Positions 38,133 to 62,110 of a stretch of DNA of 64,000 bases are shown one piece after another. Location: the NCBI RefSeq assembly GCF_009765995.1, contig NZ_LMUI01000011.1:1-64000 (forward strand), written 5' to 3'. The notes under the pieces were generated by a model. It saw nothing but the letters and a program-made list of their open reading frames with translations. It did not search any database and was not told the DNA's origin. The translations under genes were made by a program, and so were the position numbers. Source of the DNA: Methylocapsa sp. S129 (GTDB lineage: Bacteria > Pseudomonadota > Alphaproteobacteria > Rhizobiales > Beijerinckiaceae). Position 1 is the first letter of the stretch; every line of letters starts with the position of its first letter.

Positions 38133-38155
38133 ACGCGCCAGGATTTCGCGCGTTC
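38131..38155. terminator. Hairpin between phaC and pyc
   Basis: A perfect 8-bp stem, GAACGCGC (38131-38138) and GCGCGTTC (38148-38155), with a 9-base loop fills the 24-bp gap between the convergent phaC and pyc stops. It could terminate both transcripts, although neither side has a strong T-run. Confidence 0.55.
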
Positions 38156-38156
38156 G

Positions 38157-41648: not shown

Positions 41649-41790
41649 CCTGGTTTCCTATCCTGCGGGTCTGGCCCGCGAGGTCGCGGCAGCTCCATTC
41701 ACGGTGCAAATCCGGCGCCATGGTTTAGCCGGCAAAGCGCGCTCAATTGGCGTGCGGACCAAGGTTTCGTCAACGGGTAAGGACAAGCAC

Positions 41791-42732
41791 ATGCGCATTC
41801 TTGTGGTCGGCGCCGGCGCCATCGGCGGATATTTCGGCGGCCGTCTCCTGGCGGCGGGACGCGACGTCACATTCCTCGTGCGCGCCAAGCGCGCCGCGGC
41901 GCTGAAACGGACCGGCCTTTCGATCCGCAGCCCCGCCGGCAATCTCGATCTGCCCGAGCCGCCGACCGTCGCGGCCGAGGCGCTGCGCGCGCCTTTCGAC
42001 CTCATCCTGCTCAGTTGCAAAGCCTATGATCTCGAAGGCGCGATCGAATCCTTCGCGCCGGCGGTCGGGCCGGAAACGGCGATCCTGCCTTTGCTCAATG
42101 GCATGCGCCAGCTCGATATCCTCGATCGGCGCTTTGGCGAGGGCCATGCTTTGGGCGGCCTGTGCCTGATCTCGGCCTCGCTCGACCCGGAAGGCCGCAT
42201 CTTGCACCTCAACGAACTGCACGGCCTGACGTACGGCGAGCGCGATGGCGCGCGCTCGCCGCGCGTCGAGGCGATCGCGGCGGCGTTCGCGGGCGCGCAT
42301 TTTGACGCGCGGCTCAGCGAGACGATCGTGCAAGAGATGTGGGAGAAATGGGTGTTCATCGCCACCGCCGCCGGCTTGACCTGCCTGATGCGCGCTTCGA
42401 TCGGCGACATTGTCGCGGCGGGAGCGAGCGGCCTCGCCCTGGCGCTCTTCGACGAATGCGCCGATATCGCCAGGCGGCAAGGCCATGCGCCAAGCGGACC
42501 GGTCACGGAGCGGATCCGCGCGATGATCACCGCGAAAGGCTCCGCCACTACCGCTTCGATGCTGCGCGACATCGAGAATGGCGCGCCCGTCGAAGCCGAT
42601 CACATCATTGGCGATTTGATGCGCCGCGGCGAGATCGCACAGGGCGCCTCGCTGCTGGCGATCGCCTATGCCCACCTCAAAGCCTATGAGGCGAGACGGG
42701 CCAGAGGCCAGGCGCCCGCGAAGCTGTCTTAG
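41791..42732 (+). CDS. Ketopantoate reductase-family protein (2-dehydropantoate 2-reductase-like)
   Basis: A 313-residue NADPH enzyme. The nucleotide site GAGAIGGYFGGRL is at the N-terminus, with the catalytic lysine in EMWEKWVFIATAAGLTCLMR and the ApbA C-terminal helical domain. It may make pantoate for CoA, but alphaproteobacteria carry several paralogues with other 2-oxoacid substrates, so no symbol is given. The start is set by homology and a GTAAGGAC ribosome site. The ArsR gene converges on it. Confidence 0.88.
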   Translation: MRILVVGAGAIGGYFGGRLLAAGRDVTFLVRAKRAAALKRTGLSIRSPAGNLDLPEPPTVAAEALRAPFDLILLSCKAYDLEGAIESFAPAVGPETAILPLLNGMRQLDILDRRFGEGHALGGLCLISASLDPEGRILHLNELHGLTYGERDGARSPRVEAIAAAFAGAHFDARLSETIVQEMWEKWVFIATAAGLTCLMRASIGDIVAAGASGLALALFDECADIARRQGHAPSGPVTERIRAMITAKGSATTASMLRDIENGAPVEADHIIGDLMRRGEIAQGASLLAIAYAHLKAYEARRARGQAPAKLS

Positions 42733-42756
42733 CGTCGTCCCGGCGCCTGCACGTGT

Positions 42757-43107
42757 TCAGGAAGCTTTGGAAAGATCGACTGCTTTCGCCGCCCTCGCCT
42801 CGGCGCGGGCGGCGGCGATGATCGAGTCGAGCAGGCCCGGAAACCGCGCGGCGAGATCGTCGATGCGCAGCGAGATCCTGCGATAGGGTCCGTCGATGCG
42901 CGCACGGGTCACGCCCGCCTCGCGCAACCGCGCGAAATGATAGCTAAGGTTCGTTTTCGGGGCGCAGGCGTCAAAGGCCATGCAGGCGGCTTCACCGTCC
43001 TCGAACAGTCCCAGCACGATCTGCCGCCGCGTCGGTTCGCTCAGCGCTTCGAGAACCGCTGACAAATCAATCTGGTCGCGGTCGGGATGATGAATCTCTT
43101 TCGCCAT
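42757..43107 (-). CDS. ArsR-family transcriptional repressor
   Basis: A 116-residue winged-helix repressor: VLEALSEPTRRQIVLGLFEDGEAAC, recognition helix NLSYHFARLREAGVTRARIDG, and a C-terminal dimer helix. The start MAKEIHHPDRD matches family length; an in-frame ATG at 43188 would run into the operators. It has no classical metal-site cysteine pair (ELCVCDL), so it probably senses a small molecule or redox state. It is divergent from an MFS exporter, with two similar palindromes between. Confidence 0.9.
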   Translation of the reverse strand: MAKEIHHPDRDQIDLSAVLEALSEPTRRQIVLGLFEDGEAACMAFDACAPKTNLSYHFARLREAGVTRARIDGPYRRISLRIDDLAARFPGLLDSIIAAARAEARAAKAVDLSKAS

Positions 43108-43136
43108 GGCGGGACAATAAGGCGGCGGCGCTATTA

Positions 43137-43154
43137 ATTCAAGACTTATTGAAC
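43137..43154. promoter_or_regulatory. Predicted ArsR-type operator, copy 1
   Basis: ATTCAAGACTTATTGAAC is an inverted repeat of TTCAA/TTGAA half-sites in the ArsR-MFS intergenic region. It matches the copy at 43183-43200 in both half-sites. Tandem operators at a divergent promoter are typical of autoregulated efflux genes. Confidence 0.6.
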
Positions 43155-43182
43155 TCATTGACAAGGCATAGCGAGATCGATA

Positions 43183-43200
43183 GTTCAATAGATATTGAAC
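43183..43200. promoter_or_regulatory. Predicted ArsR-type operator, copy 2
   Basis: GTTCAATAGATATTGAAC is a near-perfect 18-bp palindrome lying 13 bp before the MFS start and 46 bp from copy 1. Binding here would block transcription or initiation of the exporter gene. Confidence 0.65.
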
Positions 43201-43213: not shown

Positions 43214-44440
43214 ATGCTGCTACGCCTCCTGCCTCTCGTCCTCGGCACCTTCGCAATCGGCACCGAGACATTCATGATCACCGGTGTTTTGCCGACCATC
43301 GCCGCCGATCTACAGGTCTCGCCCGCCGCGGCCGGCGGCCTGGTGACTATTTTCGCCCTCACTTATGCGGTCGGATCGCCGCTGGTGGCGATCGCATCGG
43401 CGGGCATGGAGCGCAAACGCCTGCTCACCCTTGCGATGGGCGCTTTCGCGCTCGCCAATCTTGCCGCCGCCTTCGCCCCGAATTTCGGCTGGCTGCTCGC
43501 CGCACGCGTCTTGCTGGCGCTCACGGCGGGCGCCTTCGTGCCGGCGGCAACCGCCTTCGCCACCGCGATGCATGAACCGTCGCGGCGCGGCCGCGCGGTC
43601 GCGTTCGTCTATGCCGGCATGACATCCGCAATGGTCATTGGCGTGCCGGGCGGGACGCTCGTCGCGGCCGCCGCCAATTGGCGCGCGACCTTCCTCGGCG
43701 TCGCTTTGCTCGCCCTCCTCGCACTTGCCGGCGTCGTCGCCATCCTGCCGCGGCTGAAGGGAATGGGAACGGTAAGCTTGCAGGCGCGCCTTGCGGCCGC
43801 GCGGCGGCCGGATGTCTTGCGGCTCCTCACCCTGACGACGCTCACGCTTTGCGGGGCCTTCGCCGCCAACACCTATCTTGGCGTCCTGCTGCAGGCGACG
43901 TTCGGCGTCACGACCAATCAACTTGCAGGCCTGCTGATGCTGCTTGGAATGGTCAGTTTCGCCGGCAATCTCATTGGCGGCTATGGGGCCGACCGCTGGA
44001 ACCGCGAGCGCTTCATCGCCGCGATCCTCGCGGTTCTCATCGTTGCTTTCGTTCTGTTGTCGGTCGGCGCTCAACTGGGCGGCGCCGCAGGCGGCGCGAT
44101 TGTCCTCGCGGGGCTGACGATCTGGGGTCTGTTTGGTTGGGCCTTTCCCGCCGCGCAGCAGGCGCGGCTCATCTCGCTTGATCCCGCGCTCGCGCAGGTG
44201 ACGCTCTCGCTCAATGCGTCGGCGCTCTACATCGGCGCCGCCGCCGGCTCGACTTTGGGTGGACTGGCGATCCGCCAATGGTCGATCGGCGCCCTTGGAT
44301 GGGCGGCTGCGCTCTGCGAAGGCGCGGCCCTGACGTTTCTCGTGGCGACAGAAATGCGCATCCGCGCGACCAGGGCGCAAGACAAGGCGACGTCATGCCC
44401 GAGCGCGGAGGGAGAAGCGGCGAGCGCCGTCGCGCGCTGA
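43214..44440 (+). CDS. MFS transporter (drug/sugar exporter type)
   Basis: A 408-residue protein with about twelve transmembrane helices, of the AraJ/YdhP-like DHA1 group: opening LVLGTFAIGTETFMITGVLPTIAADL, the motif-A-like loop after helix 2, GAFVPAATAFATAMHEPSRRGRA, and GVPGGTLVAAAANWRATF. It probably exports a drug or metabolite. The ArsR operators lie just upstream. The gene ends 25 bp before the broken prfB 3' end. Confidence 0.92.
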   Translation: MLLRLLPLVLGTFAIGTETFMITGVLPTIAADLQVSPAAAGGLVTIFALTYAVGSPLVAIASAGMERKRLLTLAMGAFALANLAAAFAPNFGWLLAARVLLALTAGAFVPAATAFATAMHEPSRRGRAVAFVYAGMTSAMVIGVPGGTLVAAAANWRATFLGVALLALLALAGVVAILPRLKGMGTVSLQARLAAARRPDVLRLLTLTTLTLCGAFAANTYLGVLLQATFGVTTNQLAGLLMLLGMVSFAGNLIGGYGADRWNRERFIAAILAVLIVAFVLLSVGAQLGGAAGGAIVLAGLTIWGLFGWAFPAAQQARLISLDPALAQVTLSLNASALYIGAAAGSTLGGLAIRQWSIGALGWAAALCEGAALTFLVATEMRIRATRAQDKATSCPSAEGEAASAVAR

Positions 44441-44465: not shown

Positions 44466-44543
44466 CTCCACGTCCTCCGCCACGACCGCGCGACCCGACA
44501 GCTTGTGCGCGCGCGAGGCTTCCATGAACGGATCGAGATCGCC
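44466..44543 (-). pseudogene. prfB 3'-end fragment (displaced copy)
   Basis: 78 bp on the minus strand encode DLDPFMEAS-R-AHKLSGRAVVAEDVE, matching the last residues of the intact RF2 gene at 52908-52985. The two agree at 69 of 78 positions. The 31 bp at 44513-44543 are identical to 52955-52985, and all nine mismatches lie toward the 3' end. Similarity stops abruptly at 44543. The fragment has no start, has lost the stop codon found in prfB, and is in the same orientation as prfB. It probably marks one end of an inserted segment. Confidence 0.88.
44513..44543 (-). repeat. 31-bp exact direct repeat with prfB, possible attachment core (left)
   Basis: Identical to 52955-52985. It is the only perfectly conserved part of the duplicated prfB end and sits at the abrupt similarity border, as a recombination core would. 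The att function is inferred; no integrase gene is seen in the window. Confidence 0.55.
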
Positions 44544-44554
44544 GGCTTTCGGCG

Positions 44555-45706
44555 CTAATGCGCGTGAACCGGCTGGGTGAGGAAGCGTTCGCGCGAAACG
44601 GGAATGGACGGTTCACCCGCGACATCGGAAGCCGCCGCCCGCTCTTCCAACATCGAACGCAGGATATCCAGGCCGGCTTCGAAATTGCTCCGCACAGTCG
44701 GCCAGACTTGCTCGAAGAAGGCTAAGTCTTTCGGCTTCGGCTTGGCGAAGCGGAGCTCGAAACGCGTGCCGCCGTCCGCCCGTCCCTCGAACGCATAGGT
44801 GAACAGGATTTTCGAGGCGCCCGGGATCGGCAATAGCGCCGTCAAGGTCACGTAATCGAACGGGCGCCAGTCGAGAATGTCCTCGATGATGGCGTCCTTG
44901 CCGTGTACGCAATGGTTCCGCGTGCCGGCCCCGCGGCGGCCGTTTACGGCCGCTTCAACGAGGCTATCGCTTCGCTGCCAGCGAGAGTGATGCGCGGGCG
45001 AGGTGACGAACTCCCAAACGGCCGGCGGCGGCGGCGCAAAATCCCTTTCGATCACTCGGAACGCGCGGTCGCGATCGACGATGATCCGCGTGGCCTCGTT
45101 TTCCGTCGTCCAGGCCTGTTCGAGGTCGCGAATCCAGCACTTTGTTTCGCCGATGATGTCGATGGCCTCATCATGCTCGGCAAGGCCTTGCGCCGCGGGA
45201 TCAATCTCCATCGCCCGCACGCAGGCGTCGGAGTAAAGCGCATAGGCATGTCGGCCGAACTTCTTGTTGACTTCGTTTTTGAGGAGGCGATGCACGAGAA
45301 TCACGTCTCGCCCTGCGAGCTCCTCTTGGCCTCCCATCCTCTGCTTGATGAACTCGCCGTAATGAACGACGAACTTCACATCCAGACTCTGCATCAGGCT
45401 GCACGCCTGACACTCGCAGCTATTCGCCTGCTTGATGCTGCGCAGCCGCTTGCGGAAAGCGAAATACGCCGACTCGATCGCATCCTGCAGGAGCGATCCG
45501 TCGACCTTATTCGCGAGCGCGTAGACGAACGCCGCGTCGCCCTCGAATTTGGCGAGACGGAACGTCGGACGGAGCGCTCGCAGCAGCGTATCCATGATGT
45601 CGGCGATGATGTCCTGAGCGTGGTCGAGCTCAGCGCCAGACATGAAGTTTGTATAGCCCGAAATGTCCGCGATCACGAAACAGGCTGATTCTGTCTTCGG
45701 AAGCAT
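44555..45706 (-). CDS. DUF2652 (cyclase-like) protein fused to an SRPBCC domain
   Basis: A 383-residue two-part protein. The N-terminal DUF2652 region (about residues 1-190) is adenylate-cyclase-like: CFVIADISGYTNFM and KFEGDAAFVYA hold the two metal-Asp positions of class III cyclases. A CECQAC motif may bind metal. The C-terminal half (about 215-355) is a START/SRPBCC lipid- or ligand-binding fold (FAPPPPAVWEFVTSPAHHSRW). Cyclase activity is unproven. It starts just inside the left border of the predicted island. Confidence 0.82.
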   Translation of the reverse strand: MLPKTESACFVIADISGYTNFMSGAELDHAQDIIADIMDTLLRALRPTFRLAKFEGDAAFVYALANKVDGSLLQDAIESAYFAFRKRLRSIKQANSCECQACSLMQSLDVKFVVHYGEFIKQRMGGQEELAGRDVILVHRLLKNEVNKKFGRHAYALYSDACVRAMEIDPAAQGLAEHDEAIDIIGETKCWIRDLEQAWTTENEATRIIVDRDRAFRVIERDFAPPPPAVWEFVTSPAHHSRWQRSDSLVEAAVNGRRGAGTRNHCVHGKDAIIEDILDWRPFDYVTLTALLPIPGASKILFTYAFEGRADGGTRFELRFAKPKPKDLAFFEQVWPTVRSNFEAGLDILRSMLEERAAASDVAGEPSIPVSRERFLTQPVHAH

Positions 45707-45978
45707 CGCACCCCTCTCAGCTCGGCGACACGCAGCGCGCTACGATCTTTGGCCACCCCCGGCCTTCTGGGCTAACTTATCGTTACCATGCGACCACGGA
45801 AAGACGAACGACCGCTTTCGACCCGAGGCGGTCGCTCGACCGTCCGGTCGCCTATCCGAACAACGGACATTTCGTGATGACCGCAATAGGCCGGTTTGCG
45901 CCGTTGCCGACGGCGACGGACCTTTCGCCGCTGTCCATACGCACAATAGCGGCCAGCTTCCGCTCGGGCGCGCCTGCA

Positions 45979-46884
45979 TCATCTGCCAGAAAGACCACCG
46001 ATCGCTTCAACCAGAAAATCGATGAACAGGCGCGCACGCAACGGAAGTTGACGTCCAAACGGGTGCAGGACGTAAACCGGCTCCGTAGACATGGGTATCT
46101 CCGGTAACACGATGCGTAGGCGACCGTTTGCAAGATCGTCCTGAATCGCCAGGCGCATGAACTGCGTGATGCCGGCACCCTCCAGGGCGGCCACAATCAG
46201 GTAGTGAGCGTCATCTGTATCGAAGGGCCCCTCAGGGACAATTCGCGTCCCATCGGCAAATGTAAAGGCGAGGGGCCGGCCGGCGCGCAAATAGCGAAGG
46301 CAGGCGTGTTGCTTGAGGGCATCGATCGACCTGGGCGCGCCTCGACGATCGAGATACCCGGGCGATGCGGCCAGGACATAGTGCAGGGCGCCTAACGAAC
46401 GGCCGATCAGACTGGTGTCTTGCAGTTCCCCAAAGCGCACCGCGATGTCGAAGCTTTCGCGGATCAGGTCCACGCGGCGATCCGTGACGCTCAGCTCGAG
46501 CTTGATATCCGGATAGCGGTCGAGGAAAGAACCGGCCCACGCGGCGATCAGCGGGCGTCCGAACGTCGTTGGCACGGTCACCCGAAGCAAGCCCCGCACG
46601 TTCTCGGGAACCTGGACGATGTCTTCAGCTTCTTCGATGGCGCGCAGATGGGGAGCCACGCGTTCGTAATACGCGGCGCCCTCGGCAGTTGGGCTGAGCG
46701 TGCGCGTCGAACGTTGCAGAAGGCGCACGCCGAGACGCTGCTCGAGACGGGCGACGCTTTTTGACACTGCCGACGGGCTGGCGCCCATCAACCGGGCGGC
46801 GCTGGCAAAGGAACCTGCGTCTACCGTCCGTACAAAGGCGACAAGCCCAGCGGTCTTCTCCAAGATCGTCGCCATTCCGGACAT
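45979..46884 (-). CDS. LysR-family transcriptional regulator
   Basis: A 301-residue regulator with helix-turn-helix GSFASAARLMGASPSAVSKS, then VARLEQRLGVRLLQRSTRT, and a substrate-binding domain of the CrgA/AaeR-like group (FDIAVRFGEL, SPGYLDRRGAP). It is divergent from an AraC regulator (112-bp gap). The 272-bp gap on its 3' side, toward the DUF2652 gene, holds nothing recognisable. No obvious target enzyme is adjacent. Confidence 0.9.
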   Translation of the reverse strand: MSGMATILEKTAGLVAFVRTVDAGSFASAARLMGASPSAVSKSVARLEQRLGVRLLQRSTRTLSPTAEGAAYYERVAPHLRAIEEAEDIVQVPENVRGLLRVTVPTTFGRPLIAAWAGSFLDRYPDIKLELSVTDRRVDLIRESFDIAVRFGELQDTSLIGRSLGALHYVLAASPGYLDRRGAPRSIDALKQHACLRYLRAGRPLAFTFADGTRIVPEGPFDTDDAHYLIVAALEGAGITQFMRLAIQDDLANGRLRIVLPEIPMSTEPVYVLHPFGRQLPLRARLFIDFLVEAIGGLSGR

Positions 46885-46996
46885 CCATTCATGAAAGAAC
46901 TGAACTTTGGCTGTCTATTCAGCCACGCGCGATCGAATATATACACCCTGTCTTTGACCTCTGCCTCCGCGGCACACCAGCCCAACGAAGATCCTC

Positions 46997-47905
46997 ATGG
47001 ACGCACGTGAGATCGAGTCACTCATCGCAAGACGGTTCGGATTGGCGCGCGCGCCAACCTTCGTGGCGCGCACATCCGTGTTGAAGCATCCGATTATATT
47101 CACACATCTGCGGAGTACAGAAGCTCGGCACCGGCGATCGATGGACGTTCCACGTGAACAATCCTTTTCGTTCCAAGTGCCTCTGCATACCTCTTTTCCT
47201 TGGCAGGCATGGTTTTCCGGAAAGCAAAGGATTGTCTCCCCCGCCACGCCGGGCAGCGCCTATCTCTTTGACCTGACCAAGAATCCAACGGTTGCTCTTG
47301 ATACCGCTTTCAACACGGTTCGTTTTAACATCTCTCAGGCTGCGCTTGACGAACTGGCCTATGATGGCGGGCTTCGCAGAGCAAAGGGGCTGTACTCACC
47401 TTCGTTAGGGCGCCCGGACCCCATTATGGTCGGCCTGGCCCAAACGCTCGTCGCAGCGATGGAGCAGCCCGGCGCCGGAACAGGTCTATTTGTTGATTAC
47501 ATTGCATTGGCGTTCCATGCTCACATCCTTCACGCCTATGGCAATGTTCCCGTCGAGCAAGTTTCAGGGCGCGGCGGCCTTGCACGTTGGCAGCTTCGTC
47601 GAGCCTGTGAGTTTATCGAAGCAAACCTAGCTGGCGATCCCTCAATTACGGATGTGGCGGCTCTATGCGGCTTGTCGAGCGACTATTTCGCCAAGGCGTT
47701 TAAGCAGACCACTGGAGCGCCGCCTCATGCATGGCTTTTGATGAGGCGCATCGAACGCGCGAAACGGCTCTTGAGCGAAACAAACCTTGAAATTGCTGAA
47801 ATCGCATTCGCATGCGGATTTGTTGATCAGAGCCATCTCAGCCGCACTTTTGTGAAACGCGAGGGGTGCAGTCCCGGAAAATGGCGTCGTCTTCGTCGGA
47901 ATTAA
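46997..47905 (+). CDS. AraC-family transcriptional regulator
   Basis: A 302-residue regulator with an N-terminal AraC-binding-like domain (FSFQVPLHTSFPWQAWFSG) and a C-terminal AraC double helix-turn-helix (DVAALCGLSSDYFAKAFKQ, then IAFACGFVDQSHLSRTFVKREG). Its base composition is unlike its neighbours: 47281-47340 has 28 of 60 G/C and 47761-47820 has 27 of 60, against about 70% in the flanking core genes. This supports recent acquisition within the prfB-bounded segment. Confidence 0.9.
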   Translation: MDAREIESLIARRFGLARAPTFVARTSVLKHPIIFTHLRSTEARHRRSMDVPREQSFSFQVPLHTSFPWQAWFSGKQRIVSPATPGSAYLFDLTKNPTVALDTAFNTVRFNISQAALDELAYDGGLRRAKGLYSPSLGRPDPIMVGLAQTLVAAMEQPGAGTGLFVDYIALAFHAHILHAYGNVPVEQVSGRGGLARWQLRRACEFIEANLAGDPSITDVAALCGLSSDYFAKAFKQTTGAPPHAWLLMRRIERAKRLLSETNLEIAEIAFACGFVDQSHLSRTFVKREGCSPGKWRRLRRN

Positions 47906-48221
47906 CCAAGATCCCGCACAGTCCGGCAGCAGAAGATAGCCGGCGAGACTTTCATCGACCGGGCTAAGATCCGCCGTTCGCACGCCTGCCAGATCCAGAG
48001 ACTGACTTCTACCGAAACGCCAGGATCATCCAATTCAATCGTCGCCTCGTCTTCTACATTTTTGACGCTCCTAGTGGTCGCCGCAAGACAAGGAAAAGCG
48101 GCCTGAAGCGAACCCCATCGGGGACCGTTGACGCCTTCCCTTAGCGGGAACGGGAGGCTGAAGGTCAGTTACGAACCCATAGCTAACAGGTTTTCACCTT
48201 TAACTGAAAAGGAGAATGGTC
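47906..48221. other. Gene-free interval upstream of the alpha/beta hydrolase
   Basis: A 316-bp gap with no convincing gene. Around 48128-48160 a TTGACG followed by a CTTCCC...GGGA dyad vaguely recalls MerR-type promoters, but no -10 fits. The last 20 bp carry the AAGGAG ribosome site of the next gene. Confidence 0.5.
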
Positions 48222-48911
48222 ATGACACAGCATGTTAAGAACGTGGTCCTGGTGCATGGGGCTTTCGCGGATGGCTCCGGCTGGAAGAGGGTCGCCGACA
48301 TCCTCATGAATGATGGCTACAAGGTGTCGGTGGCGCAGCCTCCCGAGACTTCGTACGCCGACGACCAAAAATATACGAAGGCCGCAATCGACGCTATGGG
48401 CGGCCCAGTGGTTCTGGTCGGCCACAGCTATGGCGGGTCCATCATCACCGAGGCCGGCAATCATCCAAACGTTAAAGCTCTTGTCTATATCGCCGCCTTT
48501 GCCCTCGATGAAGGTGAGAGCTGTGCGTCGATCGAACAGGCCGTGCCGCAAGCCTCCAAAGCGTTCAAACCGGACGGCAACGGGCTTTGGTGGATTGACC
48601 AGGCGCATTTCGCCGCCGACTTCGCGGCGGATATTCCACGGGATGAGGCGGAGTTCATGGCTATATCGCAGGTGCCGATCTCTACCGACTCGTTCACCCA
48701 CAAGGTTACAAATCCCGCCTGGAAGCACAAACCCACCTGGTACATGGTCGCCACCGAAGACCGGTCGATCAATCCGGAGCAGGAGCGCATGATGGCGAAG
48801 CGCGCCAAGGCCAAGACGGTCGAAGTAAATGCCAGCCATGTAGCCTACATGTCTAACCCGAAGGAAACAGCCAAGCTCATCGAAGAGGCTGCCGCGGGCG
48901 CCAATCAGTAA
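48222..48911 (+). CDS. Alpha/beta hydrolase (plant methylesterase-like)
   Basis: A 229-residue alpha/beta-fold hydrolase: oxyanion loop LVHGAFADGSGWK, nucleophile elbow GHSYGG (Ser), an acid in VATEDRSINP and catalytic His in NASHVAYMSNP. The length and the HGAFADGSGW motif fit the small salicylate-esterase/hydroxynitrile-lyase-like group common in soil bacteria. ATG 48222 has a strong AGGAG site about 7 nt before; the ATG at 48216 overlaps that spacing. A hairpin terminator follows. The substrate is unknown. Confidence 0.9.
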   Translation: MTQHVKNVVLVHGAFADGSGWKRVADILMNDGYKVSVAQPPETSYADDQKYTKAAIDAMGGPVVLVGHSYGGSIITEAGNHPNVKALVYIAAFALDEGESCASIEQAVPQASKAFKPDGNGLWWIDQAHFAADFAADIPRDEAEFMAISQVPISTDSFTHKVTNPAWKHKPTWYMVATEDRSINPEQERMMAKRAKAKTVEVNASHVAYMSNPKETAKLIEEAAAGANQ

Positions 48912-48922
48912 CGTGAACCGTC

Positions 48923-48951
48923 CCCCTTGCGGTATCTGCTATCGCAAGGGG
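48923..48951 (+). terminator. Rho-independent-like terminator of the alpha/beta hydrolase
   Basis: A 9-bp perfect stem, CCCCTTGCG (48923-48931) and CGCAAGGGG (48943-48951), with an 11-base loop, followed by ATTATTT, 11 bp after the stop codon. Confidence 0.7.
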
Positions 48952-49029
48952 ATTATTTGCGCGACAGAGGATCACTCGCTTTGATGACCTAGTGAAAACC
49001 GACATCAATGGATCACGAAGGGAAAAAAG

Positions 49030-49725
49030 ATGGAAAATCAAACCATCATCATGTCTGTGGATGGAACGTTCGGCGCCTACACCGCACGGCCGAAGGGCTT
49101 GCGGGCTCCCGCCGTGGTCGTTCTGCAAGAGCTTTTCGGGGTCAACGCCGACATCCGCAAGACCTGCGACGAACTGGCCGAACAAGGCTTCCTTGCGGTC
49201 GCGCCTGACCTGTTTTGGCGTCAGGAGCCGGGCGTCGATCTCAGCGTCACCTCCGAACCCGACTGGCAACACGGTCTCCGGCTCTATCAGGCTTATGACC
49301 GCGACGTTGGCGTAAGGGACGTCAAGGACACCGTCGACATCGTGGCCAAATTGCCCGAGTGCACCGGTAAAGTTGCGGTCCTAGGCTATTGTCTTGGCGC
49401 GCTGATAACCTTCCTGACCGCCGCGCGCTACGACGTCGACGCTGCGGTCGCCTATCATGGCGGCGACACCGAGAAATATCTGGGCGAGGTCAGCGGCCTC
49501 CGCGCGCCGCTGCTCATGCACCTGGGCGAAGAGGACGAGTTCATTTCCAAACCCGCGCAAGCCGAGATCAAAGCGGCGCTTGCCCGTAAGGCAAACGCGA
49601 CGATCTACAGCTATCCAGGTCAGCGTCATGCCTTCTCTCGGCATAACGGGGCGCACTACAACGCTGCGGCGGCAGCGCTTGCCAACAGGCGGACAAACGA
49701 ATTTCTGCATCAACAACTGCAATGA
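49030..49725 (+). CDS. Dienelactone hydrolase family protein
   Basis: A 231-residue carboxymethylenebutenolidase-like hydrolase: Cys nucleophile in GYCLGA, the interacting Glu in VLQELFGV, Asp in GEEDEF and His in PGQRHAFSR. These enzymes open dienelactones from chlorocatechol or related ring cleavage, but many paralogues act on other esters. Neighbours include an enol-lactonase-like gene, hinting at aromatic or lactone breakdown. A strong hairpin terminator follows. Confidence 0.92.
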   Translation: MENQTIIMSVDGTFGAYTARPKGLRAPAVVVLQELFGVNADIRKTCDELAEQGFLAVAPDLFWRQEPGVDLSVTSEPDWQHGLRLYQAYDRDVGVRDVKDTVDIVAKLPECTGKVAVLGYCLGALITFLTAARYDVDAAVAYHGGDTEKYLGEVSGLRAPLLMHLGEEDEFISKPAQAEIKAALARKANATIYSYPGQRHAFSRHNGAHYNAAAAALANRRTNEFLHQQLQ

Positions 49726-49729
49726 CCTT

Positions 49730-49758
49730 CGCGCCAGTCGCTTCGAGCGGCTGGCGCG
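49730..49758 (+). terminator. Strong hairpin terminator after the dienelactone hydrolase
   Basis: A 12-bp stem with one G-U pair, CGCGCCAGTCGC (49730-49741) and GCGGCTGGCGCG (49747-49758), with a TTCGA loop, then CATTTAT. It begins 5 bp past the stop. Confidence 0.75.
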
Positions 49759-49922
49759 CATTTATACGGCAGCTTGGCACGGCGATCTGCAGGAGGCGGA
49801 CCGTCGCCTCTTCACCCGCAGCAGTCGATTCGGCCCGTCGTCTGAACGTCCGCTTCGGAGGATCGGAGACCGTCGGCTGAACGGCTATTTTGGGCGCAAA
49901 GCAGGCCTCGAAGGGGTCCAGC

Positions 49923-50714
49923 TCAGCGCAGAAAACCGAGCGCCGCCTCCATGAACTCGGCAGGATATTCGACGTTCGACAAGTGAACCGCGGGCAGGAC
50001 AACCAGCTTTGCTCCGGGCAACGTCGCCGCGATGAGCTCGCTGTGGCTGAGGGCTGTCACAGTGTCGTGCTCGCCGGCGATCACCAGCGTCGGCCGGGAA
50101 ATCAGCGCTATGGTGCGGCGAAGGTCCGCATCGCGAACCGCCGCGTACAATCCAGCGAGCCCGTGCCGGTCGATCGCCTGCAGCATGGCGCGGAATTTCT
50201 CAACGACGGGCGCCTTGCCCGTCAGCATAGGCGCAGGGAACCAGTTGCCCAGGAACATTTCGGCGGTTTCCGACATGTCCGGCGCCTGCAACACGGCGGC
50301 GATCCGCTCGTCAAACAGCCTGGCCGGCCCGAGATAGGACGAGGTGTTGCTCAGGATCAGACGGTCGATCCGCTCGGGCGCATGAACGCCGAGCCATTGC
50401 CCGACGAAGCCGCCCAGCGACAGGCCGAGGAAGTGCGCGCGCTCAATGCTCAGGGCGTCGAGCAGTTCGATCATGTCGCGGCCAAGCCGGTCGAGCGAAT
50501 AGGCGCCGACGGGAACGCTTGACGCGCCGTGGCCGCGAAAGTCGTAGCGCAGAACGCGGAAATGTTTCGACAAGTCCTCGATCTGCATGTCCCACATCCG
50601 CAGCGTCGTGCCGATGGAGTTCGATAGCGCCAGCACTGGCTTGTTAGCTTCTCCTTCGAGGCGATAGGCGATGCGGGTCCCGTCGCCGACGGTAACGAAA
50701 TTCAGATCATTCAT
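49923..50714 (-). CDS. 3-oxoadipate enol-lactonase-like alpha/beta hydrolase
   Basis: A 263-residue alpha/beta hydrolase close to PcaD: ALSNSIGTTLRMWDMQIEDL, nucleophile GLSLGG, VIAGEHDTVT acid and a His in PAVHLSNVEYP. PcaD converts 3-oxoadipate enol-lactone to 3-oxoadipate in the beta-ketoadipate pathway, but no other pca genes are present, so the exact substrate is open. The start MNDLNFVTVGDG is set by homology. It is divergent from a LysR regulator, its probable controller. Confidence 0.88.
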   Translation of the reverse strand: MNDLNFVTVGDGTRIAYRLEGEANKPVLALSNSIGTTLRMWDMQIEDLSKHFRVLRYDFRGHGASSVPVGAYSLDRLGRDMIELLDALSIERAHFLGLSLGGFVGQWLGVHAPERIDRLILSNTSSYLGPARLFDERIAAVLQAPDMSETAEMFLGNWFPAPMLTGKAPVVEKFRAMLQAIDRHGLAGLYAAVRDADLRRTIALISRPTLVIAGEHDTVTALSHSELIAATLPGAKLVVLPAVHLSNVEYPAEFMEAALGFLR

Positions 50715-50819
50715 GATGAAGGCGCCTTCCTTGTGGACCGCTATGGGAAGGAAACCGTAGTTGCTTCGCGTTTTCGGTGATATTACAAAGATTGGATAAT
50801 CTCTGTAAGAAAATCTGAC

Positions 50820-51773
50820 ATGTCCGAATTCACCTTGCACGACTTGCAATGTTTCGACGCGGTCGCCCGCGCCGGCGGCTTCCAACCTGCGGCGGCTCTG
50901 CTGCATCGCTCGCACCCGGCGGTGTTCGCCGCCGTCGCAAAGCTGGAGCGACAACTCGACTTTATTCTTCTGGATCGCAGCGGCTATCGCGTGCGCCTCA
51001 CCGACGCGGGGCTATCGTTCCACGACCGGGCGCAATCGCTGCTGCGCGAGTTGGAAGGCCTGCGCATCCACGCTGCTCAATTGTCGATGGGCGAAGAAAG
51101 CGAGATCCATGTGGTGATCGGCGACCTCTGCCCGCGCCCACAGGCTCTGGGGATGCTCGGACGGTTCTTCGCCCAGCGCCCGGGCACGCGCCTGCATCTG
51201 CACTTCGAAGCAGTGGGCGGCCCGTGGGAGCGCCTCTTCGATGGCGAAGCCGATTTGATTCTGCATTGGATCGACAAGAGCGACCCGCGGGTGGAATGGG
51301 TCGATCTGTGCAAAATTCCGTTCGTTCCCGTGGTCGCGCCAGGCTTTCTGCCGGAGCGGACCCAGCGCCCCATCACGCCGGATCAGATGCGCGCGTTCAC
51401 CCAATGCGTCATGCGCGACACGGCCCGCCATTCGTCGCAACAAGATTATTTCATGATCGAAGGCGCCCCTCAATGCATGGTCGCCGATCAGGGCATGAAG
51501 AAGGAAATCATCCTGCAGGGCCTCGGATGGGGCCACATGCCCCGCTTCTTGATCGAAGAAGAACTGCGCAAGGGACGCCTGCAATCCATCGCCGGTCGTC
51601 ATCTGCCAGGCAGCAATCAGGAGCTGGTGGCGGCGCGCCGCTGCGACCGGCCGCAAGGACCGATCTCGAACCGTCTGTGGGATTACATCCAGCAGCAGGC
51701 GCCGACGTTGCGCGGCGCGCTCGAAACCGGGAAACGCAGCCAGCGCGCAAAACCGCGGCGCGGCGGCAAGTGA
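50820..51773 (+). CDS. LysR-family transcriptional regulator
   Basis: A 317-residue regulator: FTLHDLQCFDAVARAGGFQPAAALLHRSHPAVFAAVAKLERQLDF covers the helix-turn-helix (read in parts), followed by a substrate-binding domain (SEIHVVIGDLCPRP). It is divergent from the enol-lactonase-like gene with a 105-bp gap, which suggests it controls that gene. The C-terminus is very basic (GKRSQRAKPRRGGK). Confidence 0.88.
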   Translation: MSEFTLHDLQCFDAVARAGGFQPAAALLHRSHPAVFAAVAKLERQLDFILLDRSGYRVRLTDAGLSFHDRAQSLLRELEGLRIHAAQLSMGEESEIHVVIGDLCPRPQALGMLGRFFAQRPGTRLHLHFEAVGGPWERLFDGEADLILHWIDKSDPRVEWVDLCKIPFVPVVAPGFLPERTQRPITPDQMRAFTQCVMRDTARHSSQQDYFMIEGAPQCMVADQGMKKEIILQGLGWGHMPRFLIEEELRKGRLQSIAGRHLPGSNQELVAARRCDRPQGPISNRLWDYIQQQAPTLRGALETGKRSQRAKPRRGGK

Positions 51774-51840
51774 GCTCTTCGAGGCCGTTCAAGAAAGCCG
51801 AATATTGGCGATTCTCAACCCATTTGGCGGACTCGCCCAC

Positions 51841-52611
51841 TCAGCGCCTAGACGATTCCTCGCCTGCATTCTGCTGATAAATATGGGTCGCGCGGACGAC
51901 GAAGATCAGGAGCACGACCAGAGATGGCCACTGGAACCAGAAGTGGCCACTCCAGGAGAATAGGTTGATCGCGCCGAGGAACGCCACGATCGCGCCGGAC
52001 CGGATCGCGGTCACGATCAGCGCCTGCTGTCTCGTCCGCGGCGTAACGCTCTGGGCGCCCCTGATGTCGACAGGCGGCCTGACGGCGTCGACCATGACTG
52101 CGCTATAGACGGGCACTTCGGCGTCGATATTCTTCAACCGCTGAGGCCCGAGGAAATTGAAGCTAAGGCTGAGCTTGTTCTTTACCTGATCGAACACAGT
52201 GCCCGAAATTAGAAGGCCGCCAGGTTCCGCCATGGACTGAAGCCGCGCCGCGATATTGACGTCATCGCCGAATATGTCGTCGCGCTCTACGATCACGTCG
52301 CCGAGATTGATGCCGATGCGGAACCACATCTGCCGGTCGGGCTCGAGCTTCTGATTGTGCTCGGCAAGCTGGCGCTGGATTTCGACGGCCGTCTGAACCG
52401 CCATGACGGAGCTCGGGAACTCCGCCAGCACACAGTCGCCTGCGGTGCTCACCACCCGCCCACGATGCTGGGCGATAAGCCCGGTCATGACGCCCTTATA
52501 TTCGTTGAGCAGCGCCAGCGTCCCGGCCTCGTCCAGCCCCATTAAACGGCTGTAGCCAAAGACGTCGGCCGAAAGGATATTGGTCAGCCTGCGTTCGATC
52601 TGGGTGCTCAT
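51841..52611 (-). CDS. Class III adenylate/guanylate cyclase with C-terminal membrane helices
   Basis: A 256-residue cyclase. The catalytic domain (about residues 1-170) has both metal aspartates, Asp16 (LSADVFGYSRLMG) and Asp59 (AGDCVLAEFPS), and the GDDVNIAARLQ motif with the Asn/Arg pair used in catalysis. The C-terminus has two predicted transmembrane helices (about 203-221 and 224-242). The layout is reversed from classical enzymes, catalytic part first and membrane part last. It lies near the right end of the predicted island. Confidence 0.88.
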   Translation of the reverse strand: MSTQIERRLTNILSADVFGYSRLMGLDEAGTLALLNEYKGVMTGLIAQHRGRVVSTAGDCVLAEFPSSVMAVQTAVEIQRQLAEHNQKLEPDRQMWFRIGINLGDVIVERDDIFGDDVNIAARLQSMAEPGGLLISGTVFDQVKNKLSLSFNFLGPQRLKNIDAEVPVYSAVMVDAVRPPVDIRGAQSVTPRTRQQALIVTAIRSGAIVAFLGAINLFSWSGHFWFQWPSLVVLLIFVVRATHIYQQNAGEESSRR

Positions 52612-52904
52612 GCCTGATACTGCTTGGACGATCTTGTGGAGATCATAACATTTCGTGGGTGGTCGAAATCCTGGACCGGAACGTTCTGGTCCCAGGCGCT
52701 CACAAAGTCACGTCCGTACAGCCTCAACTATGACCGCCTCCATAACATTGTTGCCACCGCCTGGGGGCGGACCGGCGACCTTGCTGAACGCGGCGCATAA
52801 GTCCGGAGACTAATCGACCGGCGTGCTGGCTGGCAATCGGAAACTGCCCGAAATCCTGCGCCAGAAAGGCCTGAGGCGGCAGCCCTCGACCAGCCCTGGG
52901 GCTC
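52612..52904. other. Intergenic gap at the right island border
   Basis: A 293-bp region between the cyclase and prfB. I see no coding frame, integrase remnant, tRNA or strong hairpin. The border of the duplicated prfB end begins just to the right, at 52908. Confidence 0.5.
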
Positions 52905-54033
52905 TTACTCCACATCCTCGACCACGACCGTGCGGCCGGACAGCTTATGGGCGAGCGAGGCTTCCATGAACGGATCGAGATCGCCATCGAGCACATCGCT
53001 CGGCGTGCCTGAGACATGGCCGGTGCGCAGGTCCTTGACCATCTGATAGGGTTGCAGCACGTATGAACGGATTTGGTGGCCCCAGCCGATTTCGGTTTTG
53101 GAGGCGGCGTCGGCGGTGGCGGCGGCTTCCCGCTTTTCGAGCTCGCGCTCGTAGATGCGCGCGCGCAACATGCCCCAGGCGGTCGCGCGGTTCTTGTGCT
53201 GCGAGCGTTCGGACTGGCAGGCGACGACGATGCCGGTGGGGAGATGGGTGATGCGCACCGCCGATTCCGTCTTGTTGACGTGCTGGCCGCCGGCGCCCGA
53301 GGCGCGATAGACGTCGATGCGGCAATCGCCTTCGTTGACGTCGACGACGATGCGGTCATCGACGACGGGATAGACCCAGACCGAAGCGAAGCTGGTGTGG
53401 CGGCGCGCATTGGAATCGAACGGCGAGATGCGCACGAGGCGGTGGACGCCCGATTCCGTCTTCATCCAGCCATGCGCGTTATGGCCCTTGATGATCAAAG
53501 TCGCCGATTTGATGCCCGCTTCATCGCCTGCCGTCTCTTCGGCAAGGTCGACTTCAAATCCGCGGCGCTCGCCCCAGCGCATATACATGCGCAGCAGCAT
53601 GCGCGCCCAGTCGCAGCTCTCCGTGCCCCCGGCGCCCGAATGGACCTCGACATAGGTGTCGTTGCCGTCCGCCTCGCCCGACAGCAGCGCCTCCAACTGG
53701 CGGCGCTCGCCCTCGGCTTTCAGCCCTTTGAGAATATTGACGCCTTCCTGTTCAGCGTCGGCATCGCCCTCCATTTCGCCCAGTTCGACGAGCGTGACCG
53801 CATCGTCGAGATCGCGCTGGATTTTGGCGAGCGAACCGAGGCGATCCTCCAGCAGGGTGCGCTCGCGCATCAGTTTTTGCGCGGCCTCCGCGTCGTTCCA
53901 GAGGCCAGGATCCTCGGCTTTGGCGTTCAGTTCGGCGAGACGGCGCGTCGCAGTCTCGACGTCAAAGATGCCTCCTCAGCAATCCCATGGATTGCTTGAT
54001 GTTTTCGACAAGGGACTCGGCTTCGGCGCGCAT
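52905..54033 (-). CDS. prfB: Peptide chain release factor 2 (with programmed +1 frameshift)
   Basis: Terminates translation at UGA and UAA. The gene starts at ATG 54033 (MRAEAESLVENIKQSMG), reads through an in-frame TGA at codon 24 by a +1 shift, and continues to 52905. RF2 motifs are RISPFDSNARRHTSFASVWVYP (the SPF tripeptide) and the catalytic GGQ in YRASGAGGQHVNK. The total is about 375 residues, normal for RF2. It is autoregulated: low RF2 allows the shift. Its last 78 bp are duplicated at 44466-44543. The shifted frame alone would give an ATG at 53870, which is internal. Confidence 0.97.
52955..52985 (-). repeat. 31-bp exact direct repeat within prfB, possible attachment core (right)
   Basis: Identical to 44513-44543 and in the same orientation. 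Crossover inside this block would join the prfB body to the displaced 3' end and excise about 8.4 kb. The att role is an inference. Confidence 0.55.
53961..53976 (-). promoter_or_regulatory. prfB +1 programmed-frameshift signal
   Basis: On the coding strand AGGAGG-CAT-CTT-TGA-C: an internal Shine-Dalgarno-like AGGAGG (53976-53971), one codon, the slippery CTT (53967-53965), and the in-frame TGA (53964-53962) followed by C. The spacing is the same as in the E. coli prfB signal. Confidence 0.95.
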
Positions 54034-54149
54034 GGGAGGGCTCTGGGACCGGGAAAGAGAGAATCGAAGAAAGTCATATGGGATCGACCGGGCCGTTGGC
54101 TACGCCCTATTGGCGACGGGTTCAAGGCCGGGCGCCCAAACGCGCCGAT

Positions 54150-55541
54150 TCAGGCGACGCGGCGCAGAGGCTTGCTCGACACGCTGCGATCAAGGTCGAA
54201 ACGATCGACGAGATGGGCGAGCCCCTCTGCGTCGCCCGCGAGCGCCTGACTGGCCGCGGCGGCTTCCTCCACCATCGCGGCGGTGCGCTGGACGGCCTGC
54301 TCGACTTCGTTGACCGCTGAATTGACCTCATTGAGGCTGCTCGCCTGATCGCGAACCGCGGCCGCGATCGTCATCGCCAGGCCATTGATTTCGGCGACTT
54401 CGGCGACGATCTGCTCCAGCGCCGCCCCCGTCTTGCTCACGAGATCGACGCCGCGGTCGACCTCGGCCTTGGAGGTGTTGATCAGCGCCTTGATCTCTTT
54501 GGCCGCCGCCGCGGAGCGCTGCGCCAAAGCGCGCACTTCCTGGGCGACCACGGCAAAGCCCCTGCCCGCTTCGCCCGCGCGCGCCGCCTCGACGCCGGCG
54601 TTGAGCGCCAAAAGATTGGTCTGGAACGCAATCTCGTCAATGACGCCGACGATCTGGCCGATCTTCTGGGAGGATTTTTCGATGCCGACCACCGCCGTCA
54701 CGGCTTCCCGAACGATTTCTCCGCCCTGCTCGGCGCCGCGCCGCGCCGAAGCGGAGACTTCGGCGGACCTTTGGGCGCTTTGCGCCGTGCGCGTCACCGC
54801 GGCTGCGACCTCGTCCAATGTCGCGGCGGTTTCCTCCAGGCTCGCCGCCTGCCGTTCCGATTGTTTGGAAAGATTGCCAATCGTGACGCCAATCTCGCCG
54901 GCGCCCGCCTTCAGGCTGTCCACCGCGCCATCAACCTCCGCCATCGCGTTGCTCAGCGCGTCGGCGGCGGCGTTGAAATCGGTGCGGATCTGTTCGTAGC
55001 CGGAATCAAATTCCGCATCGAGCCGGACGGTCAGATCGCGGTCGGCAAGGCGGCTGAGCGCGGCGGCCAGAGAATCGACGACCCGCGCCTGCTGGCGCGC
55101 CAGGTTTTCCTGGACCTCGCGCGCCTTTTGCTCGGCCTCGCGCAGCGCGACGACGGCCCGCATGTCGCCCCAGAACGAGATGACCGCCTGCCTGCCGCCG
55201 ATCGTCGCCGCCAGCAGCGTCACCATGACCGGCAGCAACGCCCCATCGAGCCGCTGGTGCATCCATTCGAACCGGTAGATGCGGTCGCGCAGCACCGCCG
55301 TCATATTCTCGGGACCGATATCGGCCGACCGGCGGCCGTTCGGCTGGAATTCGGGCGAAAGCAATTCGGGTTTCAGGCCGATCAGCTTGTCGCGGCCGCA
55401 ATTCATCAGCTTTTCCAACGCCGGATTGCATTCGGAAATCACCCCGCCGTCGATGACGAAATAGGCGTCCGGCGAGTTCTCAAAGACGAACTCGGCTGCG
55501 TCCTGACGAATGGAAGGTTTCCGTTTCCCCAACCCGAACAT
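54150..55541 (-). CDS. Soluble methyl-accepting chemotaxis-type receptor with PAS domain
   Basis: A 463-residue receptor without transmembrane segments. A PAS domain near residues 15-130 ([29 protein letters not shown]) is followed by a signalling coiled coil with the hairpin tip [37 protein letters not shown] (read in parts), diagnostic of MCPs. It would sit in the cytoplasm and signal to CheA. No che genes are in the window. The ATG at 55541 ([10 protein letters not shown]) is favoured over a GTG at 55583; neither has a strong ribosome site. Confidence 0.88.
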
Positions 55542-55823
55542 CGCCGCCCCAAGAATTGAGAATCGATCGAGGAACGTAGTCACCGAAAGATTAAAATTAT
55601 GCTAGGATTCACACAGACTTGAGCGCTTGTGAGCGGGCGGGATTCGATCAGTCGCCGCCAAAAATCCCGTTGTCTTCCACGGACTTGCCTTGCTGGTCAC
55701 CCGGGGCGGCGTTTGCGGAACGACCGTCCCGTAAAGCCAAATGCGAGGGCGCCTGATGCGTCCCTGGAACTTCTGAACCCTCGCTGCGTTATCACAATAT
55801 CGGACTTGGCCGAGGACGCGAAA

Positions 55824-56093
55824 ATGGCAAACGTTGAATATTTCGACGATGAAGGCGCGGCGGCTCTCAGCGACGGCGAGATTCAATCAGTCGCCCGTCG
55901 CCAGCTCATCGGCTCGCTCGTCGTGGTCGTCATCATCGCCGCGGTTGCGGCGCTTACGGCCCTCCGGCCTGTGCATTTCGATATAGCCGGCATCGCCCCC
56001 CAAAAATCCGCGGCGATCCAGCAGCCCTCCTTTGTGACCCTTCCAGGACAGCGTGTCGCCGGTCTGGTGCGGCATGAGGTCGAGCTGCCCTAA
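55824..56093 (+). CDS. Small single-pass membrane protein, hypothetical
   Basis: I do not recognise this 89-residue protein. It has an acidic N-terminus (MANVEYFDDEGAAALSDGE), one strong transmembrane segment (LIGSLVVVVIIAAVAALTAL, about residues 28-47), and a short polar tail. The codon pattern fits the genome. The gap to the next gene (about 350 bp to 56443) holds the palindrome at 56327 and an AT-rich stretch. Confidence 0.6.
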   Translation: MANVEYFDDEGAAALSDGEIQSVARRQLIGSLVVVVIIAAVAALTALRPVHFDIAGIAPQKSAAIQQPSFVTLPGQRVAGLVRHEVELP

Positions 56094-56326
56094 GAGGCCT
56101 TCAGGCCGCCGGCCCGCCGTTCAATTCCGGACGCGCAAGGACTTCGGTCGCGCAACGTTTTAACCCCTCATTGCAGACGGGACTGGCGCCCGCTGGTCTG
56201 CCGCCTTCCGCCATCGCCGCTTTCACGGACCACGCCGCTCAAACGGTCGCGACGGGGCCGAAGAGAAAGCGCGTTCGCTGATCGGTCGCGATAAATCCGG
56301 GGGCGCAGCGCGCTTAACCTGGAACC

Positions 56327-56344
56327 AGATATACTCGTATATCT
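56327..56344. promoter_or_regulatory. Operator-like palindrome upstream of the MFS gene
   Basis: AGATATAC (56327-56334) and GTATATCT (56337-56344) make a perfect 8-bp inverted repeat with a 2-base centre. It lies in the AT-rich stretch before the MFS gene and is a likely site for a repressor of the transporter or the catabolic genes. No regulator gene is adjacent. Confidence 0.5.
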
Positions 56345-56442
56345 ATTCCTCTTATATCCGGCTGCGATTGATGAGAGATTGGGGTCTCGTCACGGGGTCC
56401 CCAGGTGTCCGCGCTCGCAATGCCTCAGTCTTCTGTTCGCTC

Positions 56443-57672
56443 ATGAGCGCTCGCCCGGCAAATCCGGTCGCGGCTCCCACGGCCGGCGTCGAGTCGCAAT
56501 ATTGGCTCCGCAACATGACGGTCTGCCTGGTCGGCTCGTTCACGACGATCGTCGCGATGACGCTGATGCTGCCGTTTCTGCCTCTTTACGTCGAGCAGCT
56601 CGGCGTCAGGGATCAGGCGGCGATCGTGCAATGGTCGGGCATCGCTTATGGGGCGAGCTTCTTCACGGCGGCGCTTGTCGCGCCGCTTTGGGGCTGGCTC
56701 GCCGATCTCCATGGACGCAAGCTGATGCTGATCCGCGCCAGCCTCGGCATGACGATCGCGATGCCGCTGATCGGCATGGCGCAGGATGTCTGGCAATTGG
56801 TGGCGTTGCGCCTCCTCGTCGGCCTGCTCGGCGGCTATTCCTCGGGATCGATGGTGCTGGTGGCGACCCAAACGCCCAAAGACCGCTCGGGATGGGCGCT
56901 CGGCATGTTGGCGTCGGGAATCATGGCGGGCAATCTCGTCGGCCCGCTGATCGGCGGCGCGCTGCCGCCGCTGATCGGCATCCGCGATACGTTCTGGGCG
57001 GCGGGAGCGGTCATCTTCCTGACTTTTCTGGCGACCACGTTCCTGATCAAGGAGGAGCGTCGTCCGCCCCGTGCGAAATCAGCCCGGCGCGGCGGATGGG
57101 CGGCGATCCCCGACAAACGTCCCGCGCTGGCGATGATGTTCACCGGCATGCTGCTGATGTTCGCCACTATGTCGATCGAGCCGATCATCACGGTTTATGT
57201 GGCGCAGCTCGTCCGCGACCAGAGCGAGGTGACGCTGGTGTCGGGAATTGTCATGTCCGCGGCGGCGCTGGGCAGCATTCTGTCGGCCTCGCGTCTCGGC
57301 AAGCTCGCCGACCGCGTCGGCCATTGGAACGTGATCGTCGGCGCGCTCGCCGCCTGCGCGCTGCTGCTGATCCCGCAGGCTTTCGTGACGCAGGGCTGGC
57401 AACTCGTCGGATTGCGTTTCCTGATGGGCCTGGCGCTCGGCGGCCTCCTGCCCTGCATCGCCAGCGTCATCCGGCACAATGTCCCGGACGGCGTCGGCGG
57501 CGCGATCCTTGGTTATTCCACCTCGGCCCAATATGCTGGCCAGGTCACAGGCCCACTCGTCGGAGGTTTCATCGGCGGCCATTTCGGCATGCGCGCGGTG
57601 TTCCTAGGAACGTCAGTGTTGATCGCCTGCGGCGCGGTTTATAATTGGGCGGTGCGGTCGGCGGAGCGCTAA
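56443..57672 (+). CDS. MFS transporter (DHA1 type)
   Basis: A 409-residue twelve-helix major-facilitator protein. Features are LMLPFLPLYVEQLGV in helix 1, the motif-A loop GWLADLHGRKLMLIR after helix 2, the antiporter-type GMLASGIMAGNLVGPLIGG in helix 5, and a second motif-A-like loop RLGKLADRVGHW after helix 8. It resembles TetA/YajR-like efflux pumps more than importers. The ATG at 56443 is uncertain; in-frame starts reach back to 56371. It is followed after 62 bp by the ammonia-lyase gene and may share its operon. Confidence 0.88.
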   Translation: MSARPANPVAAPTAGVESQYWLRNMTVCLVGSFTTIVAMTLMLPFLPLYVEQLGVRDQAAIVQWSGIAYGASFFTAALVAPLWGWLADLHGRKLMLIRASLGMTIAMPLIGMAQDVWQLVALRLLVGLLGGYSSGSMVLVATQTPKDRSGWALGMLASGIMAGNLVGPLIGGALPPLIGIRDTFWAAGAVIFLTFLATTFLIKEERRPPRAKSARRGGWAAIPDKRPALAMMFTGMLLMFATMSIEPIITVYVAQLVRDQSEVTLVSGIVMSAAALGSILSASRLGKLADRVGHWNVIVGALAACALLLIPQAFVTQGWQLVGLRFLMGLALGGLLPCIASVIRHNVPDGVGGAILGYSTSAQYAGQVTGPLVGGFIGGHFGMRAVFLGTSVLIACGAVYNWAVRSAER

Positions 57673-57734
57673 GCGCCCCATCGTCCGGCTTGTTTTCAGC
57701 ATACAAGATCAACGTGCCCGTGAGAACGCCCGAG

Positions 57735-60046: not shown

Positions 60047-60051
60047 AATCC

Positions 60052-61215: not shown

Positions 61216-61287
61216 GGGAAGAGTGTTCTTTTCAGCCCCGCCGCGAATGGTCTTCGAATCACCGACCTCGCAGTCGGAGTTTGATGG

Positions 61288-61776: not shown

Positions 61777-61782
61777 AAGTGA

Positions 61783-61848
61783 TTATTTGGGTCGGACTTC
61801 GCCGCCAAGGGGCCTTGTCTCGCCGCCCCATCCTTCGCACATGTGCAT
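61783..61848 (-). CDS. Possible small protein/leader ORF upstream of the DUF4760-like gene
   Basis: A 21-codon frame (MHMCEGWGGETRPLGGEVRPK) with a GGAGG ribosome site 5 nt before its ATG, ending in TAA 6 nt before the next gene's ATG. Spacing suggests translational coupling. The peptide is not recognised. The short length means it could be chance; the ribosome site and spacing are the only support. The remainder of 61849-62110 shows nothing. Confidence 0.35.
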   Translation of the reverse strand: MHMCEGWGGETRPLGGEVRPK

Positions 61849-62110
61849 AGGAGCCTCCATTTTTACTCGCGGGAGCGACCCCGACGTTGAGTTACAGGTC
61901 GTCCACCCCAGGTAGAATGTCAAGAAGCGTCTTCCTTAACAAATCTCCACCTTAAGGGTTGCGGAAGCCCTAATTCTCCTTCCCCGATCGTTGCGCTCCG
62001 ATCCCCGCGGACGGCCGATGGGTTCGGCGGCGCGCTCATGCACATTTGTGCGTATGCTCAAACAACCCTCCGGAATCGTCCAGAAAATGGAAAACCCCGC
62101 CCGGCGCTGA

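Follow-up and report, generated by a model that had tools for sequence, protein, structure and literature searches.

How did a second copy of the 3′ end of prfB, the gene for release factor 2 (RF2), come to lie 8.4 kb from the intact gene in Methylocapsa sp. S129? The question arises in a window of 64,000 nucleotides, by which we mean the whole stretch of DNA analysed here (contig NZ_LMUI01000011.1 of assembly GCF_009765995.1). The window lies on a 1.15-Mb contig (C17) of a 6.87-Mb draft assembly in 62 contigs. The two copies of the gene end bound a segment of accessory genes, and this arrangement most likely arose by insertion at the prfB 3′ end. Insertion is the best-supported reading because the repeat has an identical inner core and because one congener, G010, shows the empty state.

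The main reading frame of intact prfB occupies 52905..53870 on the minus strand and carries one tail copy at 52908-52985, the candidate attL. The other copy, at 44466..44543 on the same strand, consists of the last 26 sense codons without the stop and is the candidate attR, presumably the displaced original gene end. A reading of the window made from the sequence alone (below, the sequence-only reading) had described a 78-bp repeat with a 31-bp exact core and an abrupt border, and we recovered both. The copies are identical at 69 of 78 positions (88%), in the same orientation and with a spacing of 8442 bp. The inner 31 bp of the fragment (44513-44543), nearest the prfB body, match 52955-52985 perfectly, and all nine mismatches are confined to the outer 47 bp (P = 0.0075 under random placement). 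This core encodes GDLDPFMEAS, near the prfB end. In a search of the whole genome with the prfB gene, the fragment is the second-best match after the gene itself (E 2.6e-21) and is therefore not a chance match. Third codon positions hold six of the nine differences. The displaced copy has decayed, with three amino-acid changes and CGG at the site of the intact gene's TAA stop codon.

We rejected the idea that the fragment is an overlapping piece of another gene. It sits between the stop codons of an MFS transporter gene and a DUF2652 gene and outside both frames, its inner border being 11 bp from the DUF2652 stop codon and its outer border 25 bp from the MFS gene. Among relatives, the DUF2652 relative of congener G009 has no adjoining prfB tail, and the MFS gene of G010 is followed by a small open reading frame (ORF) and then by the real prfB end. 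An exact 31-mer repeat in a draft genome of 62 contigs also raises the thought of a mis-join during assembly. We consider such an artefact very improbable, since the copies differ over the 47 adjacent bp and the contig extends for 1.15 Mb with an order that matches G010 on both sides.

The sequence-only reading had expected prfB to adjoin the ArsR/MFS pair where the segment is absent. Eight congeners provide readable sequence after prfB (1.3-16 kb each). The order in G010 is mrcA, prfB, a small ORF (~640 bp), MFS, ArsR and then a block matching 34.0-38.1 kb of the window, with the MFS/ArsR pair convergent with prfB. Between prfB and MFS this genome has about 0.8 kb containing the small ORF, with neither segment nor fragment, and its order as a whole is that of the window minus three stretches (38133-42796, 44544-52904 and 54037-62896). 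The expected neighbourhood is thus seen in one of the eight congeners, with a single ORF intervening, and comes close to the predicted empty state. The other seven have neither MFS/ArsR nor the segment after prfB, and within the readable sequence none of the eight has the segment there.

We also compared the divergence of the tail copies with that between species. In a set of 96 prfB loci, 55 gene ends could be placed, with lengths of 78 and 81 nt and one misplaced value of 867, and the comparison uses only the 21 of exactly 78 nt. Over the outer 47 bp the fragment and the intact end differ at 9 positions, and the intact end differs from those of the eight congeners at 8-14. Between-species pairs with 7-11 outer differences, which are not independent of one another, have an identical core in 0 of 30 cases and carry 1-7 core differences. 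Where the copies differ at third positions, the fragment agrees with congener G004 in five of six cases; G004 differs from the fragment at 6 outer positions and from the intact end at 8. None of the eight congeners has any of the fragment's three amino-acid changes. G004-like third positions together with private amino-acid changes are consistent with a gene end that was functional at first and decayed afterwards. The tail copies cannot be told apart by codon use, which is uninformative as to which is foreign.

For the route of insertion we tentatively favour, with somewhat less than even confidence, an ancient site-specific integration at the prfB end, the integrase being later lost and the interior overwritten. 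Its lead over recombination with foreign DNA that carried its own prfB end is no more than modest. The ancestor would have had prfB facing the MFS/ArsR genes, as G010 still does. Incoming DNA with a foreign prfB 3′ end would have recombined inside the 31-bp core, giving the resident prfB body a new functional 3′ end and displacing the original end by 8.4 kb to a position beside MFS. Most likely the crossover would have been the work of a site-specific recombinase of the tyrosine type, and the incoming element a circle with a copy of the gene end in its attP. Subsequently the integrase gene would have been lost and the interior replaced by unrelated accessory genes. After a gene-end swap of this kind one would expect an identical core flanked outward by allele-level divergence, with the functional copy attached to the gene body and the original end, on the far side, decaying beside its old neighbour; the sequence fits all four predictions if the fragment is, as presumed, the original end. 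The best explanation for a border at the edge of the identical stretch would be a recombinase, though none is present.

Several findings weigh against a site-specific origin. In seven of the eight congeners, all but G004, the prfB end resembles the intact copy more than the fragment, and the fragment is therefore not shown to be the native end. Extra events are needed to account for the fragment's missing stop codon and for the ~800 bp that separate prfB from MFS in G010, and the core argument depends on 31 bp only. The sequence-only reading had seen no integrase, and indeed no tyrosine or serine recombinase was found by Pfam among the eight genes of the segment, in seven selected frames from three intergenic gaps, or on the contig nearby. 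The Pfam matches of the eight genes include no recombinase, transposase, relaxase or phage family, and the seven frames yielded only one match, below threshold, to Phage_fiber_2 (47902-48165, E 0.14). All 14 tyrosine-recombinase (PF00589) matches in the genome lie off C17; that contig does hold the two resolvase-domain matches, at distances of about 0.45 and 0.82 Mb from the segment. The linked tyrosine recombinase proposed as something to look for was likewise absent from the prfB contigs of the eight congeners (PF00589). The window contains no tRNA, and Rfam at its gathering threshold gave no match over 42-64 kb.

Lack of recurrence belongs on the same side of the balance. The sequence-only reading had proposed a search for other islands ending in prfB 3′ fragments, and none came to light. 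Of the 96 loci, 95 contain the gene end, with 43 bp to about 16 kb of downstream sequence (L048 is without the gene end, L075 and L095 have less than 50 bp downstream and L070 has 314 bp). No second prfB end like that of the window occurs in these 95. Self-matches at E up to 1e-3 appear in 14 of the 96 loci (65-86% over 28-77 bp); the best has E 2.4e-7 and lies away from the gene end, compared with 1.4e-22 for the window. Matches that overlap the gene end do not exceed 84%, over 31 bp, and were taken as background. A scan for the core pattern in 397 genomes of the family, including the source, gave a match in 153 and none in 244; such a scan would miss a tail with an altered core, and its single matches are counted without confirmation as prfB. 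Two core matches occur, among the matches listed, in three genomes: the source, G068 and G297. The second matches in G068 and G297 were rejected as prfB tails, as their similarity to prfB ends after a few residues, and accordingly we found no second genuine prfB tail in the 152 other core-matching genomes (of 396).

Phage sequences were searched as well. When the 81 C-terminal residues of prfB were run by tblastn against 50,697 phage records, 48 of these matched; of the 20 listed, 3 are annotated as prfB or release factor 2 and 17 carry no such annotation. The core pattern matched once in IMG/VR, in a sequence whose resemblance to prfB stops after about 11 residues (E 0.15), and this match was taken as chance. 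It is conceivable, though rather unlikely, that the GDLDPFMEAS codons are the attachment site of an unseen integrase family in relatives within the Beijerinckiaceae, the segment being a decayed remnant.

The cargo adds a further difficulty for site-specific integration, as it is a patchwork whose pieces are related to unconnected loci and replicons. The block with the cyclase-domain gene (51840-52704) has an 83% nucleotide relative at a different locus of G010, and the DUF2652 gene a 77% relative at a different locus of G009. A divergent pair of a pcaD-like and a LysR gene is 79% identical to the same pair on the Rhizobium plasmid pAtK84c, and the dienelactone hydrolase gene has a 77% relative on a Methylovirgula plasmid. 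The segment genes were not found together at another site. As a unit the segment was not found in 59 relatives, where the longest match among those listed is about 1.15 kb (at most five candidates were scored in most genomes), nor in plasmid records, the best of which spans 22% of the 8,000-base query. This patchwork would also make sense if the fragment were independent of the segment, that is, if a prfB tail had been brought in beside the MFS genes, or were the relic of an older rearrangement, and the cargo had accumulated separately. The locus has several stretches absent from G010, and the ArsR-MFS stretch is only 72% identical in nucleotides to that of G010, compared with 82% for prfB. 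We nevertheless judge an independent fragment unlikely: the first cargo gene has its stop codon only 11 bp from the inner border, and gene order in G010 suggests that MFS is an old neighbour of prfB.

The DNA on either side of the segment bears on the mechanism too. Directly upstream of prfB lies an 8.9-kb stretch (54037-62896) encoding an MCP, an MFS protein, a pyridoxal phosphate (PLP) enzyme, two M20 peptidases, a DUF4760 protein and a GNAT protein. In G010 the sequences flanking it are only about 90 bp apart. As mrcA adjoins prfB in seven of the eight congeners (a mrcA-like gene is inside the fetched locus in 83 of the 96 loci), the 8.9-kb stretch between prfB and the mrcA-like gene is itself an insertion. 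A short intergenic repeat in this stretch (62763-62824) has at least 11 copies elsewhere in the genome, at 76-84% identity. The third stretch, 38133-42796 (4.7 kb), holds a pyruvate carboxylase gene, which has a 77% match on a different contig in G003, and one more ORF; in G010 about 1.5 kb of different DNA takes its place. Neither the 4.7-kb nor the 8.9-kb stretch has a joining repeat of at least 24 nt at its ends, another point against a site-specific origin, and accessory DNA therefore seems to gather here by other routes too.

Downstream of prfB, the first 1.3-5 kb (8.5 kb here) show no pairwise similarity at E 1e-5 among the nine genomes. For the 206 bp after prfB, a search of 396 other genomes of the order gave nothing at E 1e-4, with at most two candidates scored in most genomes. 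The prfB 3′ flank looks insertion-prone in the genus. In G009 the sequence after prfB (L043:14712-19980) contains a Terminase_6C-domain ORF, a 630-aa protein without a Pfam match and a further ORF, also without one, which we take to resemble a REP-associated transposase.

Because the locus seems to gain DNA otherwise too, recombination with foreign DNA explains the segment nearly as well as site-specific integration. Here the prfB 3′ end of a foreign relative, with the genes downstream of it, would have recombined by homology inside prfB on one side; on the other, microhomology or end-joining would have attached it close to the former prfB end, with no site-specific recombinase involved. We regard this homology-assisted illegitimate recombination as possible, if doubtful. 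The failure to find an integrase, the lack of joining repeats at the two other stretches and the dissimilar DNA after prfB all agree with it, and the divergence of the outer end fits alleles of two species. What it leaves unexplained is the inner border at 31 bp of perfect identity, given the placement of the mismatches (P 0.0075) and the absence of such a core from the 30 comparable pairs. Integration into a gene 3′ end, as the sequence-only reading had it, thus gains from the empty state in G010 and the identical core and loses from the lack of a recombinase and of a second segment bounded by a prfB tail. Its 'old or defective element' is plausible, but the step to an integrative element goes beyond the evidence.

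The segment proper (44544-52904, 8.4 kb) contains eight genes, each with a Pfam match, and these bear out the accessory content listed in the sequence-only reading: a DUF2652-SRPBCC protein, two LysR and one AraC regulators, three hydrolases and a cyclase-domain protein. In order from the fragment they are the DUF2652 and polyketide cyclase (Polyketide_cyc2)/SRPBCC gene (44555..45706, minus), a LysR-type regulator (45979..46884, minus), the AraC-type regulator (46997..47905, plus), an alpha/beta hydrolase (48216..48911, plus), the dienelactone hydrolase family protein (49030..49725, plus), an alpha/beta hydrolase that matches a gene annotated pcaD, 3-oxoadipate enol-lactonase (49923..50714, minus, the start codon being our choice), the second LysR-type regulator (50820..51773, plus) and the Guanylate_cyc-domain protein (51841..52611, minus). 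Outside the segment, the MFS transporter gene (43214..44440, plus; Pfam) is convergent with prfB as in G010. Adjoining it is the regulator that the sequence-only reading named ArsR (42757..43188, minus), whose HTH_20 match (E 1.6e-5) is slightly under the Pfam cut-off. The G+C content of the segment is 60.3%, compared with 62.9% for 1-34 kb of the window, and the AraC gene, already singled out as AT-richer, ranks lowest in G+C among the 19 genes measured, at 55.6% (55.8% at third codon positions). A minus-strand peptide, MEAVIVEAVRT (52711-52743, followed by a stop), resembled the start of a thiolase; we dropped this idea because searches of Pfam, PDB, plasmids and family genomes gave no support. 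Among 80 named loci retained for prfB, the one ranked first belongs to a Beijerinckiaceae metagenome-assembled genome, at 80% protein identity.

How does the prfB segment compare with known systems? In the open-access literature searched we found no report of prfB or release factor 2 as an island or integration site; most subscription journals fall outside this coverage, so the result is weak evidence of novelty. A search by term of the main texts of PMC12884075 and PMC8627217 gave no mention of prfB. The general pattern is familiar. Elements that integrate at gene ends duplicate the end at their borders and restore the gene; they typically have an integrase and recur in many genomes. Protein-coding targets are also on record: integrative and conjugative elements (ICEs) and islands of Mesorhizobium are reported to integrate at guaA, radC and dusA (PMC8627217), and SGI1 at the 3′ end of trmE (PMC8409611). 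The prfB segment shares with these islands and ICEs a coding-gene target and a duplicated gene end at the borders, but differs in having no integrase and in being a single case.

Cis-mobilizable elements (CIMEs) are att-flanked segments that have lost their recombination genes. With two att-like borders, accessory cargo and no recombination module, the prfB segment matches this integrase-less pattern on present sequence evidence, although the collections searched yielded no parent ICE or integrative and mobilizable element sharing its att site. SXT/R391 ICEs also use a release-factor gene as their insertion site, but they insert at the 5′ end of prfC, which encodes RF3, with their own integrase, whereas the prfB segment lies at the 3′ end of the RF2 gene and no integrase was found. 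The locus is at present mainly a clear gene-end duplication at an insertion-prone locus, a single case in one genus. Insertion relics of this kind are familiar, and prfB may be a new target; should the site-specific reading hold, the list of protein-coding attachment sites would gain a highly conserved translation gene.

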